DNA of 13,522 nucleotides from Acidobacteriota bacterium. Its GTDB lineage: Bacteria; Acidobacteriota; Terriglobia; Bryobacterales; Bryobacteraceae. The position numbers and the translations under genes were made by a program. Below the pieces are notes generated by a model. That model was given only the letters and a program-made list of their open reading frames with translations. It was not told where the DNA came from and searched no databases. The stretch covers positions 1 to 13,522 of the forward strand of contig JAPKYY010000139.1 of NCBI GenBank assembly GCA_026394095.1, read 5' to 3'. Positions 6,672-13,344 of this stretch are shown piece by piece (within the stretch, counting starts at the first letter, position 1; each line of letters begins with the position of its first letter).

Positions 6672-7251
6672 TTATTTTAAGAGCGGCAGCAGCACGGCGT
6701 CGACATCTTCATCGCGCCATTGCTTGATCTGCACGTCTTTATGCAAACTCCAGTTCTCAACTAGTTCGACGCCCTCATCCGGCAACAGTTTCACGATTGG
6801 CCCAAAGGTCTCAAGCTCCAGAAAATCCGCATTCGTGAAGGTCTGGAAACTGCAGAAATACTCCGGATACACCTTGTAGGGCTCCGCATGGTACTGCTTC
6901 AGGAAAAGCTCGTCATTCAGTAGATTGTAAGCCAGTCTCCGGCTCCACCGGTTGCGTCGCCCGTACGATGTCTCCCAGAATCTCAACCTGCACAGGAGCG
7001 TTGTCCAGGCCGTAGGTGTACTTGCCGTCCTCAGGCCCAATCCACAAACGGTGCCCGCCTCGAATCTGCCAGGTGGTCTCACCTGTCTTGCCCATCTGCT
7101 CGTCAAATTCCTTGAACAGATTCTGCCCTCCCACAAACCCGTATCGGATAATGCGTGGCCCCACATCGGAGGTCAAAATCAGTTCTACAGTACCGTTAGA
7201 AATCCGGTAGCAATTCGGCCAGCCGCCGTAGGCAATCTTCTCGACGTTCAT
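6672..7251 (-). pseudogene. Decayed DUF4380-type gene (internal deletion and frameshift)
   Basis: Two out-of-frame pieces together resemble the ends of one protein of the DUF4380 kind (sugar-mutarotase-like beta-sandwich). The first piece runs from ATG 7251 to a TGA at 6913-6915 and contains VELILTSDVGPRIIRYGF, IRGGHRLWIGPEDG and TQPVEPETGLQ. The second, in another frame, runs to TAA at 6672 and contains YNLLNDELFLKQYHAEP, TFTNADFLELETFGP and VENWSLHKDV. By memory of the family, about 100-130 residues are missing between them; the joint is near 6919-6934. The start has AGG 6 bases upstream and lies 10 bases after thiL. The second piece alone can be read in its own frame from upstream but starts with unrelated residues. 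Whether the gene is broken or misassembled cannot be told from sequence alone. Confidence 0.8.
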
Positions 7252-7261
7252 CAAGCCTAGA

Positions 7262-8065
7262 TTACCCGAAGTGATCCCAGCCCTTGGGCGGCAGCGGCGA
7301 CCCGGGCTTGCCCGCGCACACCAAACCTATCTCATGAAACGGCTTAGCCAGCCTCTTCGGGCTTGCAATCAACAGCTCATAATCCTCACCACGATGCCAG
7401 GCATCCTCTAGCGTCGCCCCGCGGCATACCGGTGGCGCAGCGGTGATTTCGCAAGTTACGCCCGAGGCAATCAGCATCCGGTCCAGATCCATCGACAGAC
7501 CATCGGTGATATCCATCGCCGCATGGGCTTCGCGGCGCACAATTTCTACCAGATCGAGGCGCGGGGTCGGGCGCTTCTTCCAGATTCCCAGCGGCCCGGT
7601 TACATAGAGCCAATCGCCTGGCTTGGCTCCGCTGCGCAGTAACGCCTTACCTTTAGGTACAGTCCCGCAAACGACGATGTCGACATGCACTTTCTCGCTG
7701 CGGGACAAGTCACCACCCGCCACCGTCACCCCATACTTGCGAGCCAACCCAAACAAGCCCCCAAAGAAGGGCTTCACAAAGGTTTCGTCCGGCACTGCTA
7801 GCGACACCAGCGCAAACCGCGGCTCCGCCCCCATCGCAGCAATATCGGACAGGCCCCGCGCCAGCGCTTTATAGCCTACATCGCGCGGCGAATAATCCCC
7901 CAAGGTAAAGTGCCTGCCCTCGATCGTGAAGTCGGTAGTAAAGACCAACTCCTCACCAGCGGCAGGCCGGTAGACCGCGCAGTCATCCCCGATTCCAACT
8001 CTTACGCCCGAGCCAAAGCTCGGCGCATGTTTGCGAATCCAGTCGATGACTCCGCGCTCGCTCAC
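7262..8065 (-). CDS. thiL: Thiamine-monophosphate kinase
   Basis: This cytoplasmic enzyme phosphorylates thiamine monophosphate with ATP to give thiamine diphosphate, the last step of the thiamine pathway. Family motifs appear in order: GIGDDCAVYRP (24-34), TTDFTIEGRHF (43-53), the YKALARGLSDIAAMGAEP helix (65-82), AGGDLSRS (116-123), RSGAKPGDWLYVTG (144-157), MDITDGLSMDLDRM (184-197) and GEDYELL (226-232). Acidic residues for metal and phosphate binding are present. At 267 residues it is shorter than typical members (about 310-330). The shortfall is mainly the helical segment after VTGPLG (about residue 160), where the usual SAAGL stretch is absent before PTPRL. The start is GTG, and its last two bases overlap the upstream gene's stop in a GTGA arrangement. 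No TPP riboswitch is seen. Confidence 0.93.
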   Translation of the reverse strand: MSERGVIDWIRKHAPSFGSGVRVGIGDDCAVYRPAAGEELVFTTDFTIEGRHFTLGDYSPRDVGYKALARGLSDIAAMGAEPRFALVSLAVPDETFVKPFFGGLFGLARKYGVTVAGGDLSRSEKVHVDIVVCGTVPKGKALLRSGAKPGDWLYVTGPLGIWKKRPTPRLDLVEIVRREAHAAMDITDGLSMDLDRMLIASGVTCEITAAPPVCRGATLEDAWHRGEDYELLIASPKRLAKPFHEIGLVCAGKPGSPLPPKGWDHFG

Positions 8066-10671
8066 GCGATTACCAGCCCGCTCGGCAACTCCTCACCAAA
8101 GACACGGCCCAGCGCAGCCAGCTCATCCTGGCCCTCGCCCTGCACCATCGCCATCAACTGATCGCGCTTCGGATGTTTGGCAAAAGCCTTCTCCACCAGA
8201 TCGAGCGTCTGCGCTGGCACATCGCGCGAAGCATCACCCGTCTGCCGGGCCATCGCTGCAATCGCCTCTGCCGCGTCTGACAAGGCTAAGACCTGATCGA
8301 TCCAGCGAGTCATCGTGGTCACCGGCACCACCAGATTATTTGGCCCGTAGAGCAACTTGCGCGAGCCGAGGCGCCCGAGGCACCACATCTCGCTCGCCGA
8401 GTAATCCTTGGCGCGAATGCGCTTCAGCAAACCGTTACCCAACTCTGTCTTGACACCCACAGGCAACAACTCGAGCGAACTCGCACAACGCCACATCTCA
8501 CGCGAAAGCGACGGGTTCATGCGTTTCGGCTTAGCCCCCTTCGGGATCAAAGCCCCCGACAAACGCTGATACAAATCCTGCTGCTGATTGCGATTGAGGC
8601 CGCCAGAGATACGGCCGGAGAAGATCCACCAGTCGATTTCATTCTGCGCCTGATTGCCAAACACAAGCCCACTGGCAAAGACCCGTCGCGCCTGCTCAAT
8701 TCGTAAATCGTCACCCGGCGCACCAAAGCCCGGCCGCAAACACAAACCCGCCAGATTCAGCCAGCGAATCTCATGCGCCGCAGACTTCTTGCGGCCCTCG
8801 GCACACTCGAGGAACACGTCGGCCAGCTTACGAATCGCGCCCAACGGCCAGGAATTCCGGCCCAAAGAAAGCGTCTGTTCGAGCTTCTGCGGCAATTCCT
8901 CCGGCAACATCGAGAACTCACCGGTAAAGGTTTGCCGCACCAGCGCGCAGGCCCGCTCCAGCGCCTCATCGTTCACCGTCGCCATCGGCCGTGCAACAAC
9001 ACTCTTGGCACTAGCCCGCCGCAACTCAAACTGCAAGCGCCACGAATGCTCACTCACCTTGCTATCGGCAAAGATCTCAAGCGTACCCACTTCCGTCAGG
9101 TGCGCCCGCAGCTTCACCGGCACACTGCGCTCCATATTCGGATTCCCAAACCGGATCACTGCATCGAGCGGTGCGTGCAGGTGAAAACTCTCGTCCACTG
9201 CAACGCTTTGCCCGGCGACGTCCTCAGTCCGCGTCAGCGAGCTATAAAGCCGAAAACTCACAGGCTTGTTTGCAAGTAGCTGCAATCCTGGCACATCGAG
9301 CTCGAGCGTCGAGCCTTCTTCAGACCCACGCGGTACCAGACAAATCGACTGCTTCTCACCCGTCCCGATAAAGTAAGCCCGGGGCAATCCACCACGCACC
9401 AGAATCCCCTGCCCACCACCACGCACATGCGAGTAATAAGCCGCACCCTGCGCCACGGCCAGATCGAGATCCTGATTCTCAAACACCAGCGGAGCCTTGC
9501 CAAACCAACTCTCGACAACACTCTTCACCCGATCCCGCAGGATCTCCGGGATGAAGAATCCACCGTTAAACAGAATCGCGTCGGGCCGCACATTGCCGCT
9601 TTCGCTCAAGAATTGCGCCAGGTGCTTGGTCACGGCCGGGTCAGACACGTAAGGCAAGCCGAGCTCACGAAATGCCGATTTCTTGTCGACTGTTGGCACG
9701 TCAGTCAGCGCACACTCGGGCAGAAATCCATCGAGTGCCAGCTCGCGTGCTTCCGTCTTTGTAATCTCGGTGCGCAAGGTGCCGCCAATCAAAGAGCTCC
9801 CGGCACCGAGCACGGTGATCTCGACGGAATCAGGCCCGTCCACCGCCAGCAACTTCTCTTTCGCCGCTGCACACTGCCGACGTAAGGCGCTACGCTGCCG
9901 CAGCGACAGCTGCGTATTCAGCTTGGTTTCCACCAGCCAGCTCAGCGTAAGGTCGAGATTATCTCCACCCAGCAACAAGTGCTTACCAACAGCGGTGCGG
10001 GTAAACTGCACATGGTCGCCTGTGCGAGCCACTTGAATGAGAGTAAAGTCTGAGGTGCCGCCGCCGACGTCGACAATCAGCACATTCATGCCATCGGTGA
10101 GGCTCTTCTGCGACTGCGAAAGGTGCCGCGCGATCCAGGAATAAAAGGCCGCCGCTGGCTCTTCAATCAGAGTCAGCTTCTCCATCCCCGCTGCGCGGGC
10201 CGCCTGTACCGTCAACTCACGAGCCTCTTCGTCGAAGCTCGCCGGTACCGTCAAAACAACATCATGCTCGCTGATCGACGATCCGTTGGCTTCTTTCCAG
10301 GCCGCAGCGATATGGGCCAGATATTTCGTTGAAGCTTCTACCGGCGAATAGAGGCGCCCGGCTTCCTGCGCATCCCAGGGCAGGATCTTTGCATTCCGGT
10401 CTACTTCACTATTCGAGAGCCAGCTCTTGGCCGCATACACGCTCTTGGTGGGAACCAGCGCTCCCTGCTCGCGCGCATAAACACCCACATACTCCTGCTG
10501 GTCGAGATAGAGAAAACTCGGCAGTGTGCGCCGCTTCTCCTGGCGGCCCTGCGCCACATATTGCCCGATCTCAAGTACCTGTATCGGCGTGTACTCTGCT
10601 TCGGCAGCCTCCACCTCATCTACCCAGGCCAGAGCTGAATTTGTTGTCCCTAAATCGATACCAATCTTCAT
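8062..10671 (-). CDS. Long Hsp70-like ATPase with DUF3731-type C-terminus
   Basis: This 869-residue protein is a diverged member of the Hsp70/DnaK family. The nucleotide-binding domain is complete in motifs: IGIDLGTTNSALAW (3-16), AAKSWL with the Lys expected for catalysis (80-85), VPASFDEEAR (142-151), LIEEPAAAFYSWI (168-180), LIVDVGGGTSDFTLI (198-212), LLGGDNLDL (233-241), ILFNGGFFIPE (366-376) and AVAQGAAYY (405-413). A beta-rich substrate-domain-like region covers about 420-550. Residues about 560-869 form an extra, mostly helical region matching the DUF3731 type by character (WPLGAIRKLADVF, WWIFSGRISGG, EMWCLGRLGSRKLLYG). It is not a normal DnaK lid, and there is no EEVD-like tail. It overlaps the short Hsp70 gene upstream and thiL downstream by 4 bases each. 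Client and co-chaperones are unknown. Confidence 0.92.
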   Translation of the reverse strand: MKIGIDLGTTNSALAWVDEVEAAEAEYTPIQVLEIGQYVAQGRQEKRRTLPSFLYLDQQEYVGVYAREQGALVPTKSVYAAKSWLSNSEVDRNAKILPWDAQEAGRLYSPVEASTKYLAHIAAAWKEANGSSISEHDVVLTVPASFDEEARELTVQAARAAGMEKLTLIEEPAAAFYSWIARHLSQSQKSLTDGMNVLIVDVGGGTSDFTLIQVARTGDHVQFTRTAVGKHLLLGGDNLDLTLSWLVETKLNTQLSLRQRSALRRQCAAAKEKLLAVDGPDSVEITVLGAGSSLIGGTLRTEITKTEARELALDGFLPECALTDVPTVDKKSAFRELGLPYVSDPAVTKHLAQFLSESGNVRPDAILFNGGFFIPEILRDRVKSVVESWFGKAPLVFENQDLDLAVAQGAAYYSHVRGGGQGILVRGGLPRAYFIGTGEKQSICLVPRGSEEGSTLELDVPGLQLLANKPVSFRLYSSLTRTEDVAGQSVAVDESFHLHAPLDAVIRFGNPNMERSVPVKLRAHLTEVGTLEIFADSKVSEHSWRLQFELRRASAKSVVARPMATVNDEALERACALVRQTFTGEFSMLPEELPQKLEQTLSLGRNSWPLGAIRKLADVFLECAEGRKKSAAHEIRWLNLAGLCLRPGFGAPGDDLRIEQARRVFASGLVFGNQAQNEIDWWIFSGRISGGLNRNQQQDLYQRLSGALIPKGAKPKRMNPSLSREMWRCASSLELLPVGVKTELGNGLLKRIRAKDYSASEMWCLGRLGSRKLLYGPNNLVVPVTTMTRWIDQVLALSDAAEAIAAMARQTGDASRDVPAQTLDLVEKAFAKHPKRDQLMAMVQGEGQDELAALGRVFGEELPSGLVIA

Positions 10672-12386
10672 GCTTTGCGCTCTCTCACACTAAACTCGAG
10701 CTTCCAGCGGTCGCCACTGGCGGCCACGCAAAATAGCTCCAACACGCCTGTCGCCGTTACATGCGATTCCAGCGTTACCGGCACCAGCCCGCCGGGGGTC
10801 TTTGGCGTCGGCGCTAGCGTAATCTCCATCGCTGGCAACTCTTTCAAATCCTTTGGCATCGGCTCAAGCAAGGCCCCAGCCTCATCCCCGCGACGCTCGG
10901 TCGAAGAGAAGATCCGAAACTCTACTGGCTCGCCTACATAGAGGCCAAACTTACGGCCCGGATACTGATGCGCCGAGCCTTCTTCCATTCCGAACGGCAC
11001 AACCGTAAAGGCCTTCATCGGGGCTGCCATGCCGGGTACGGCTGGCATCGCATCTTCAATTCCAACGTAATAGGTGCGCGGTACGCCGCCGCGAATCCGA
11101 ATCCCCTTACCTTGCCGCGCCAGGCCATAATAAGCGGCCCCGCGAGCTACTGCCAGCATCAGATCTTCCCCATCGAGCACCTTCACGGGCTTCGGCAACC
11201 ACAGGTTCAAACTCGTCAGAATCCGGTCCCGTACCAGGCCTGCCCGCAAGACGCCACCGTTAAACAAAACATGCGTCGGTGCGGCTCCGCCCTGCTTCAC
11301 AAAGTGAGCCAGATGCGCCGTAATCCTCGCGTCGCTTGCATATGGCAAAGCCATCTCGGACAAAGCAGAGCGCCTCGTCTTGGCCAAATCCTCATCGGGT
11401 GGCACATGAGGGAAGAAGCCCTCCACCAGAATCTGCTCTACTTCGGCCCGGGTAAGTTTCGACTTGATCGTGCCGCCAATCAGACTGCTGCCACGGCCCA
11501 GAATGGTTACCGGCTGCTCGGTCACACTCGACTCGGGGTCCAGCAATACTTCTTTTGCGGCCCGGCACTGCTGCCACAAGGCCTGCAATTGCTGCGCGTC
11601 GAGCTTGGGCATCTTGGTCTCAAGATGCCGCGCGAGCGCGAGGTCCATGTTGTCGCCACCCAGCAGGATGTGGTCTCCCACGGCCACTCGCTCCAGCGTT
11701 AAGGATCCATCCTGATCCTTCACATCGATCAGGGTGAAGTCGGTCGTACCGCCACCGATATCGATAATCAGCACCCGGTCGCCGGGGCCAACCTTTTCGC
11801 GCCAATCGGCATGTTTGCCGATCCAGGCGTAGAAAGCCGCTTGTGGCTCTTCAAGCAATACGAGCTTGGAAATCCCGGCCTCACGAGCTGCCTTCTCGGT
11901 CAACTGTCTTGCCACTGCATCAAAGCTGGCCGGCACGGTCAACACTACTTCATGCTCACCAAGAGCCGGATGCCCGGCATGTTGCCAGGCTTCGTTCAGA
12001 TGCTCAAGATAAGCGCGCGAAGCCTCGACCGGGGAAATCTTCGCTACCCCGTCCGGAGCATGCACTGGCAAAATCGCCTCATTGCGATCCACCCCCGCGT
12101 AGCTCAACCAAGACTTGGCGCTGGCCACCAGCCGCCCCATACTCTCGGCGCCGCGCCTACGGGCGAGCGTCCCCACAACATACTTGGGCTGCTCATCCCA
12201 GGGCAGCGCTGTCGCCCCTTCGGCAAAGTCCTTAGGCCCGGGCAAGTAAACAAAAGAGGGCAGCAAAGACTCCGCCCGTACCTCTCCCGGCTGCACTACC
12301 TGCTCCACCGCAAAGGCCTGAACGGCTTCATCCTCACCAAAAGCTAAAGCGCTATTGGTTGTACCGAGATCAATTCCAATTACCAA
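10668..12386 (-). CDS. Short Hsp70-like ATPase lacking a lid domain
   Basis: This 572-residue Hsp70-family protein has the ATPase signatures in order: IGIDLGTTNSALAFG (3-17), SAKSWL (89-94), VPASFDAVAR (151-160), LLEEPQAAFYAWI (177-189), IIDIGGGTTDFTLI (207-220), LLGGDNMDLAL (241-251), VLFNGGVLRAG (373-383) and AVARGAAYYG (412-421). A shortened beta-type domain fills about 425-570 and the protein then ends, so the alpha-helical lid of DnaK (normally to about 640) is absent. It is similar throughout to the next gene's product, so the two are paralogues. The start must be TTG at 12386: the first ATPase motif begins at residue 3, and an in-frame TAG lies 6 bases upstream. It sits 6 bases after the DUF2760 gene and overlaps the long Hsp70 gene by 4 bases. 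Confidence 0.93.
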   Translation of the reverse strand: MVIGIDLGTTNSALAFGEDEAVQAFAVEQVVQPGEVRAESLLPSFVYLPGPKDFAEGATALPWDEQPKYVVGTLARRRGAESMGRLVASAKSWLSYAGVDRNEAILPVHAPDGVAKISPVEASRAYLEHLNEAWQHAGHPALGEHEVVLTVPASFDAVARQLTEKAAREAGISKLVLLEEPQAAFYAWIGKHADWREKVGPGDRVLIIDIGGGTTDFTLIDVKDQDGSLTLERVAVGDHILLGGDNMDLALARHLETKMPKLDAQQLQALWQQCRAAKEVLLDPESSVTEQPVTILGRGSSLIGGTIKSKLTRAEVEQILVEGFFPHVPPDEDLAKTRRSALSEMALPYASDARITAHLAHFVKQGGAAPTHVLFNGGVLRAGLVRDRILTSLNLWLPKPVKVLDGEDLMLAVARGAAYYGLARQGKGIRIRGGVPRTYYVGIEDAMPAVPGMAAPMKAFTVVPFGMEEGSAHQYPGRKFGLYVGEPVEFRIFSSTERRGDEAGALLEPMPKDLKELPAMEITLAPTPKTPGGLVPVTLESHVTATGVLELFCVAASGDRWKLEFSVRERKA

Positions 12387-12392
12387 GGGAAA

Positions 12393-12935
12393 CTACTCAA
12401 CCTCAATTTCAGCCGGTGCCAGAATCTTCAGATTCGCCTTTACCTGCAGGGCAGGCAATTCGATCTTCTCGACCTTCCAGCCCTTATGGCGCAAAGTTCC
12501 GGCCTTTACATTGCCATCGGCAGGCACATTCCCGAGCAGCTTGATCGCGCCGGGATCATTCTTGAGTGCTCCTGCGGCTGACAGCTGGGTAACTGCACCC
12601 TCCACACCGTCAATCACCGGCTGGAGCGACAGATAGCGCTGCAAAGTGGCCCGTGAGCTCTCGTGGATGTTTCGAACAGCCGCCCCAACCTGCTCGTCAG
12701 AATAAGGAGAAACGTCCTCCATCAGAAAGTCCAGCAACCGGGCATCCCGCTGCAAAAGGGCGAGCAACTGCAATGCCCCGTCGCTGACGTCCACCTTGGG
12801 CGCAACCGGCGCCGCTGCTGGTGCGGCCTTTGTTGCACGCTTGGACAAGCCCAGTGCGAGAATGACCGAGTCAGGAAGTTGGCCGCCAAAAAGCAGGCCG
12901 AAGAAAGATGAGAATGCGAGCGAGATACGGCTCAA
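12393..12935 (-). CDS. DUF2760-type protein, first gene of the Hsp70 operon
   Basis: The 180-residue product begins with a hydrophobic or amphipathic segment (ISLAFSSFFGLLFGG, 4-18). An Ala/Pro linker follows (36-47), then a helical region with ALQLLALLQRDARLLDFLMEDV (54-75) and a beta-rich end around GWKVEKIELPAL. By memory this matches the DUF2760 family, which is found next to paired Hsp70-like genes in other bacteria. No enzymatic motif is visible; a role as partner or adaptor of the Hsp70 pair is inferred. The start is non-AUG: TTG at 12935 has a Shine-Dalgarno site 12 bases away, whereas CTG at 12941 (two codons earlier) has one at 6 bases. Its stop is in the same frame as the following Hsp70 gene. 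Confidence 0.82.
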   Translation of the reverse strand: MSRISLAFSSFFGLLFGGQLPDSVILALGLSKRATKAAPAAAPVAPKVDVSDGALQLLALLQRDARLLDFLMEDVSPYSDEQVGAAVRNIHESSRATLQRYLSLQPVIDGVEGAVTQLSAAGALKNDPGAIKLLGNVPADGNVKAGTLRHKGWKVEKIELPALQVKANLKILAPAEIEVE

Positions 12936-12947
12936 GTTCAGCTCGAG

Positions 12948-12952
12948 CCTCC
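12948..12952 (-). promoter_or_regulatory. Strong RBS (GGAGG) that questions the DUF2760 start
   Basis: GGAGG lies 6 bases upstream of CTG (12939-12941) and 12 bases upstream of TTG (12933-12935), both in the same frame. The closer spacing favours CTG, a rare initiator. The divergent merR gene has the same hexamer AGGCTC just before its ATG. An in-frame TAG upstream excludes any longer start. Confidence 0.55.
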
Positions 12953-12996
12953 GTTTCTATTGGGGATTCGCGGCCAGATCGACCGCATCTCCCATT

Positions 12997-13006
12997 CTAG
13001 CGCTAG
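12997..13006. promoter_or_regulatory. Palindrome CTAGCGCTAG in the merR/Hsp70 divergent spacer
   Basis: A perfect 10-bp palindrome lies 11 bases before the merR start codon. It overlaps TAGAAT on the minus strand (12994-12999), which matches a -10 box at five of six positions and faces the Hsp70 operon. No good -35 box was found for it. The arrangement suits an operator for the divergent MerR protein, but MerR sites are usually longer dyads, so confidence is low. The HAIR motif of HspR regulators is absent. Confidence 0.35.
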
Positions 13007-13017
13007 GATAGGCTCAG

Positions 13018-13344
13018 ATGCCCGTACTGGAAACCAAATGGAAACGCGGCGAATTGGCCGAAGCCTGTGGTGTCAACAGCGAAACTCTACGCTTCTATGA
13101 AAAAGCCGGTCTCCTCAACCCCGAGCGGGGCCCTAACGGCTACCGCCTCTATTCTGTAGCTGATGCCAAGCGCATCCGCCTCACCCAGCGCGCCATTGGT
13201 GTGGGCTTTAGCCTGCAGGATGTCAAAGACTGGCTGGCCGGCGACGCCATCAAAATGGAGCAGGCTCTGCTGCGGGTAGAATCCAAAATCACTGAGCTCG
13301 AACGCCTCAGAAAAAGCCTCCGAAAAAAATTAAAAAAAGTTTGA
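13018..13344 (+). CDS. Small MerR-family transcriptional regulator
   Basis: This 108-residue protein has the MerR DNA-binding domain at the N-terminus: helix-turn-helix RGELAEACGVNSETLRFYEKAGLL (about 10-33) and wing NGYRLYS (40-46). The second helical pair DAKRIRLTQRAIGVGFSLQDVKDWL (49-73) follows. A coiled-coil dimerisation helix covers about 78-105 and ends in a basic tail KSLRKKLKKV. There are no cysteines for metal binding and no ligand domain, so the signal is not apparent. It is divergent from the DUF2760/Hsp70 operon with about 80 bases between, the arrangement expected if it controls that operon. It resembles general MerR proteins more than HspR. The start ATG has AGG 5 bases upstream. 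Confidence 0.92.
   Translation: MPVLETKWKRGELAEACGVNSETLRFYEKAGLLNPERGPNGYRLYSVADAKRIRLTQRAIGVGFSLQDVKDWLAGDAIKMEQALLRVESKITELERLRKSLRKKLKKV

Follow-up and report, generated by a model that had tools for sequence, protein, structure and literature searches.

Background

In Hsp70 chaperones, the coupling of ATP use to the binding of clients is considered to depend on a J-protein and on a conserved linker, and in eukaryotes Hsp110 serves as an Hsp70 exchange factor. Two DnaK studies name residues of this coupling node: according to the first, linker residue D393 contacts N170 and T173 and is required to reach the ATP state (PMC12406271), and the second implicates R167, N170, T173 and D388-L392 in the binding of DnaJ or in stimulation by it (PMC4022485).

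Much less is described of two protein families found beside Hsp70-like genes in the locus analyzed here, DUF2760 (PF10816) and DUF3731 (PF12531). Pfam gives no function for the former and labels the latter only 'DNA-K related protein', and no paper was found under either name in the literature searched. The Vibrio cholerae genes VC1373-VC1375 resemble the present trio by product names alone. In two reports they are listed as one unit, in which the products of VC1373 and VC1374 are DnaK-related (PMC9201469, PMC5816637); a further study describes how HapR, a regulator of quorum sensing, activates the VC1375 promoter both in vivo and in vitro (PMC10328515). VC1374 is also listed in a screen for biofilm-repressed genes (PMC9201469), and both VC1373 and VC1374 stand in two transcriptome tables (PMC5816637, PMC5636140).

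Results and discussion

Gene content and domain architecture

The DNA analyzed (the window, 13,522 nucleotides) constitutes a single contig in the 5.05-Mb genome (88.9% complete) of a Bryobacter-like member of the Acidobacteriota, and the named relatives of its DUF2760 protein come from Bryobacter and Bryobacteraceae. The main features are given in Table 1, where S and L denote the short and the long Hsp70-like protein.

Table 1. Position and identification of the features of the locus
Feature	Position	Strand	Start, length	Identification
DUF2760 gene	12393-12935	-	TTG, 180 aa	ORF list; PF10816, 128 bits (cut-off 25)
S, short Hsp70-like	10668-12386	-	TTG, 572 aa	PF00012, 76.5 bits (cut-off 20.6)
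L, long Hsp70-like	8062-10671	-	ATG, 869 aa	HSP70, 89.4 bits (cut-off 20.6)
DUF3731 domain in L	residues 630-867			Pfam, 233.9 bits (cut-off 25)
thiL-like (thiamine-phosphate kinase)	7262-8065	-		TIGR01379, 207 bits (cut-off 184)
MerR-type regulator, divergent from the operon	13018-13344	+	108 aa	PF13411, 64.7 bits

A first-pass annotation had described two Hsp70 ATPase genes overlapping by 4 bases, one of them ending after a short beta domain without a lid and the other carrying about 300 extra residues of DUF3731 type, with a small DUF2760-type protein at the head of the operon and no DnaJ or GrpE gene nearby. This description agrees with the profile matches. Both genes match the HSP70 family of Pfam and share bases 10668-10671 in the ORF list, in which L and the thiL-like gene share 4 bases as well (8062-8065); L exceeds S by 297 residues and bears a clear DUF3731 domain; and the leading gene is a clear match to its family. 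Neither DnaJ nor GrpE profiles gave a match on the window's contig.

Compared with DnaK and HscA of E. coli, S and L differ in four respects: they have neither the LLLDV-type linker, nor NEPTAA, nor the third Hsp70 signature; S appears to be lidless, and L has DUF3731 instead of a lid; their contig holds no J-protein or GrpE gene; and they are tied to DUF2760. L resembles Hsp110 in that it is a long relative of Hsp70 whose C-terminal part is enlarged, and in that it is encoded beside a shorter paralogue. It differs from Hsp110 in that this C-terminal part is DUF3731, and in that it is found without the short partner in a number of genomes (see below). With respect to the two Pfam families, the window proteins are clear members and no difference was seen.

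In the AlphaFold model of L, a nucleotide-binding domain (residues 1-421) is followed by a beta-rich domain (about 430-546) and an alpha-helical domain (about 568-858); the profile alignment is poor past the nucleotide-binding domain. A structural search with this model gave the nucleotide-binding domain an Hsp70-type fold. Judged from its length and its alignment to L, S would consist of a nucleotide-binding domain and a region that can be aligned with the beta domain of L, with no C-terminal helical domain. None of the PADLOC anti-phage models was matched over most of its length by S, L or DUF2760: PDC-M61B is the single model with any match, the best stretch, in L, covers 88 of its 588 profile positions (E 4.1e-7), S matches 65 positions of the same profile (E 0.0048), and DUF2760 has no match at all.

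Residues of the ATPase core and of the coupling node

We compared 81 S and 92 L sequences, mostly from Acidobacteriota with a few from Proteobacteria, a redundant set that reduces to 41 S and 40 L upon clustering at 78% identity. Frames were left out of the counts when they were shorter than 480 aa or had no phosphate-1 motif, as were two unclassified sequences. Controls were 27 canonical Hsp70s of the same class, chosen by their GIDLGTTN motif, and the canonical Hsp70 of the window's own genome served as a further reference; the latter is probably HscA, since a DnaJ-family gene adjoins it (contig C725).

Residues equivalent to DnaK K70, P143, E171, D194, G196, T199 and D201 are present in all 81 S and all 92 L, and R151 in 81/81 S and 90/92 L. 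D8 and T11 are conserved too, which is no test because the selection pattern required that motif. A different picture emerges in the loop N170-E171-P172-T173, which profile alignments of S and L to DnaK put at the same place. S has E-E-P-Q there, and most L have E-E-P-A: the N170 position is E in 173/173 sequences, and the T173 position is Q in 81/81 S, A in 82/92 L and T in none. R167 is kept in no S (V, T, I or M instead) and in four of the 92 L (T in 87), and K155 in two S and no L. As a result, NEPTAA is absent from all 173 sequences and present in 27/27 canonical Hsp70s, while EEPxAA is found in 172/173 and in 0/27, respectively. The VLLLD linker, searched as an LLLDV-type motif, occurs in 0/81 S and 0/92 L versus 21/27 controls, the exact motif being thus missing in 6/27 canonical proteins as well; in its place stands a family-specific stretch resembling R-G-G-x-P-R (79/81 S, 83/92 L, 0/27 controls). 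As for the three Hsp70 signatures, for which we used what we take to be the standard patterns, signature 1 is found in 81/81 S and 89/92 L (partly by selection), signature 2 in 77/81 S and 21/92 L, and signature 3 in none of the 173, against 26/27 controls.

Conservation of the ATPase residues together with replacement of the linker and J-contact residues means that the coupling node was exchanged as a whole and the ATPase core retained. As the parts of Hsp70 that respond to its helpers are the ones replaced, the gene set probably works unlike a textbook Hsp70. Such replacements need not abolish the response to a J-protein.

Co-occurrence of DUF2760, L and S

Among the best 80 of 314 loci from a DUF2760 search, all 80 named and almost all labeled Acidobacteria or subgroups thereof, 51 have the order DUF2760-S-L (L being split or cut at a contig end in some), in line with the statement of the first-pass annotation that tandem Hsp70-like genes with DUF2760 occur in other bacteria; with such recurrence, the arrangement is not due to chance. 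The S and L frames touch or overlap in 46 of these 51. The remainder comprises 20 loci with DUF2760-L and no S, three with DUF2760-S and no L nearby, five in which the contig ends after S, and a lone DUF2760 followed by 1.4 kb.

Three surveys bear on the relation of L to DUF2760. In the window's own genome and 40 relatives (n=41), DUF3731 was found in 23 genomes, DUF2760 in 22 and both in 21. In the only two L-bearing genomes without DUF2760 (G012 and G023), the contigs that encode L are 4.9 and 3.3 kb long and break off at the start of L, the side where DUF2760 is expected. In a sample of 199 genomes of the phylum, both families exceeded the cut-off in the same five and neither did in the other 194. 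In a plasmid collection, DUF2760 occurs in 11 records and DUF3731 in 10, all among those 11; the five regions inspected out of 11 belong to Beta-, Gamma- and Alphaproteobacteria. No DUF2760/DUF3731 system was found in viral contigs and phages at the sensitivity used.

A further search covered the 21 genomes from which a set of incomplete loci had come (17 of the 20 loci with L only, three with S only and the lone DUF2760), in which DUF2760 is present by construction, as is L in 17. In the four where L is absent beside DUF2760, it lies elsewhere in the genome (4/4). All 21 genomes carry a single L and a single DUF2760 above threshold, to which one genome adds a DUF2760 match below threshold. 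The co-occurrence of L and DUF2760 is near-strict, a statement carried by the independent surveys and not by the 21 picked genomes; most genomes examined come from one phylum and are therefore not independent of each other. Ten stretches around stand-alone S or L genes of split genomes were inspected by eye and revealed no constant neighbor, except a thiL-like gene near some L. The tie is therefore not just operon hitch-hiking. The first-pass annotation had proposed examining whether DUF2760 and the two Hsp70 genes co-occur across genomes, and they do.

S behaves otherwise. It is present in 19 of the 23 L-bearing genomes of the relatives' set and in 10 of the 21 picked genomes (one copy being cut at a contig end), and undetected in the other 11. 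Counting once two genomes that apparently belong to both sets (same contig coordinates), the genomes with L and no detectable S number 13, and DUF2760 is present in 12 of them; the thirteenth, G012, is the one where L lies at a contig edge. Conversely, all 29 genomes in which S was found (19 from the relatives' set, plus 10 picked ones, seven of which were chosen via an L locus) also have L. S is thus dispensable or optional, whereas L and DUF2760 are nearly inseparable. In a tree, 24 S rows, from which the HscA-like gene of locus L173 is excluded, form one clade (support 100/98). The monophyly of L hinges on where the root is placed, and long branches render that placement uncertain; as drawn, three proteobacterial L rows fall outside S and the remaining L rows.

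Several loci deserve individual mention. A diverged DUF2760 (67.7 bits; L055:8818-9378, contig C9) lies in G014, a 99% complete genome without L or S. A 22.3-bit DUF2760 match in a 1021-aa frame, in a sixth genome of the phylum sample, is below threshold and was taken as chance. G270 has an L-like Hsp70 frame of 871 aa and no S-like match in the Pfam HSP70 search, and is possibly a further, uncounted S-less genome. At L173, a solitary relocated S stands about 1.5 kb from genes that, by sequence reading, are HscA-like and HscB-like. On plasmid pTs485 of Thiodictyon syntrophicum (L165; plasmid record alone), the one of the 11 DUF2760 records that has no DUF3731, DUF2760 and S, with no L nearby, are surrounded by annotated anti-phage genes (DUF3780, DUF1156, phospholipase D-like) and a TIR protein. 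Two Bradyrhizobium plasmids carry a complete trio, located about 1 kb upstream of groES-groEL in one case (L166) and near trb conjugation genes in the other (L167).

The DUF2760 protein

DUF2760 relatives are numerous: a first search scored at least 4001, and another with a Comamonadaceae query, whose results overlap with those of the first, at least 6107. The model of the window protein (mean pLDDT 84.1, pTM 0.58) comprises a hydrophobic or amphipathic helix at residues 3-17, a low-confidence linker at about 30-48, a conserved helical core, and a C-terminal tail that has no secondary structure and terminates in APAEIEVE. An alignment of 38 sequences from Acidobacteriota and Proteobacteria contains 15 invariant columns. 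The tail motif A-x-A-E-x-E is present in 269 of 278 DUF2760 sequences (partly overlapping sets), with endings that are mostly AEIEVE-like in Acidobacteriota and AEVEL-like in proteobacterial proteins. The N-terminal helix is conserved and hydrophobic (R-I-x-L-A-F-x-x-F-F); its signal is moderate, a strict hydrophobicity threshold being reached by 81 of the 278 sequences. In two Bradyrhizobium plasmid copies, far more hydrophobic, transmembrane-like segments replace this helix. The earlier suggestion that DUF2760 is an adaptor or membrane anchor fits both the conserved helix and the apparent transmembrane segments. Given the invariant columns, the conserved tail and the hydrophobic helix, we propose that DUF2760 may be a membrane-held docking partner; we read it as the dedicated, probably membrane-associated protein that stands in for DnaJ and GrpE in a diverged Hsp70 machine.

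Possible modes of action

The reading that we tentatively favor is that L and DUF2760 form the core of a dedicated Hsp70-like chaperone machine, with S as an optional, lidless paralogue assisting L. Both L and S would bind and hydrolyze ATP, and the DUF3731 domain would cover the beta domain of L as the lid does in Hsp70. DUF2760, which its N-terminal helix would keep at the membrane, could dock on L via either the conserved helical core or the A-P-A-E-x-E tail at its C-terminus, and would take over the role of DnaJ in triggering and targeting, perhaps that of GrpE too. Clients of such a machine may be membrane-associated. The same idea can be carried further, to an Hsp70 machine free of J-protein, GrpE and linker control, in which DUF2760 represents a new class of membrane-tethered co-chaperones driving the ATP cycle of a DUF3731-lidded Hsp70; in this strong form we find it rather doubtful.

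Three other explanations were weighed. The first-pass annotation proposed that S and L work as a pair, L stabilizing S or exchanging its nucleotide in the manner of Hsp110, with DUF2760 as an adaptor. An obligate heterodimer of this kind is not the general rule, since L persists in the 13 genomes where S is undetected, and helping S therefore cannot be the whole job of L; moreover, the two genes are located apart in 10 of the 21 picked genomes, and S is encoded without L on one plasmid record. In favor of a pair, S is restricted to genomes that also have L (29/29, seven of them picked via an L locus), the frames of the two genes are most often in contact, and S-L distances remain correlated after correction by thiL, the single control gene (mirror-tree partial r 0.70 over 23 loci, against 0.67 for DUF2760-L and 0.54 for DUF2760-S). 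Such correlations fit contact and shared selection alike; a partnership of S and L is possible where both exist, and an Hsp110-like role of L is possible for genomes that have S; as an account of the system, we regard the pair as unlikely. A second alternative is an ordinary extra Hsp70 set, acting as a stress back-up and served in trans by housekeeping DnaJ and GrpE. Genes for both are indeed found elsewhere in the genome (DnaJ on contigs C702, C920 and C725, GrpE on C702) and could serve S and L in trans, and the Hsp70 fold of L and the catalytic residues are kept; against it, NEPTAA and the LLLDV-type linker are absent in 173/173 sequences, and the tie to DUF2760 is left unexplained, which makes this explanation quite unlikely in our view.

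It is also conceivable that S and L are not chaperones, but an actin-like or reactivase-type ATPase pair that forms a switch or polymer at the membrane via DUF2760. EEPxAA replaces NEPTAA, and MreB-like proteins bear EEP; in addition, both proteins exceed the Pfam cut-off of 27 bits for MreB_Mbl (28.5 bits for L, 39 for S). However, their HSP70 scores are about three times (L) and two times (S) higher, all 50 structural matches listed for the L model are Hsp70-family chains with no MreB among them, and L has the Hsp70 order of a nucleotide-binding domain and then a beta domain. We consider this explanation improbable.

Whichever mechanism applies, numerous bacterial Hsp70 relatives keep the ATPase core and lack the coupling node (173 sequences here), nearly always in company of DUF2760. 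The main points new in this analysis are the dispensability of the short Hsp70, set against the near-inseparability of DUF2760 and the DUF3731 Hsp70, and the absence of the standard linker and J-contact node from both Hsp70s. Whether a protein other than a J-protein can run an Hsp70 cycle becomes a testable question, and S and L provide natural sequences for the study of how Hsp70 allostery can be rewired.

Neighboring genes and regulators

The own genome (G000) has grpE and dnaJ on C702 and, on C725, the Hsp70 gene adjoining a DnaJ-family gene. No second full canonical Hsp70 was found in it, perhaps because the assembly is incomplete.

A thiL-like gene is a frequent neighbor, seen in 43 of the 80 named loci, some of which are cut by contig ends. 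It is probably co-transcribed, and we do not count it as a component of the chaperone machine. At 6672-7254 on the minus strand, the window has a pair of ORFs (6913-7254 and 6672-7166) that overlap and are read in different frames. By eye they resemble pieces of one protein, a 318-aa relative of which is encoded downstream of L in other loci (for example L150:16956-17912), and the gene seems to be broken or shortened in the window.

The divergent MerR is a possible regulator of the operon; short MerR proteins of this type are found in six of the 80 named loci. The gap between the DUF2760 gene and merR (12936-13017) is conserved in the genus (eight rows, one of them overlong) and contains a palindrome, TAGCGCTA, uninterrupted in five rows and with an 11-base insert in two; this region is a possible operator. 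In 22 of the 80 named loci, the strand that carries the DUF2760 gene also encodes, no more than 6 kb upstream of that gene (median distance 452 bases), a MerR-TPR-like protein that is distinct from the window's short divergent MerR and possibly a regulator as well. The one scanned among these 22 (L112:3573-4493) has a MerR-type HTH and TPR repeats.
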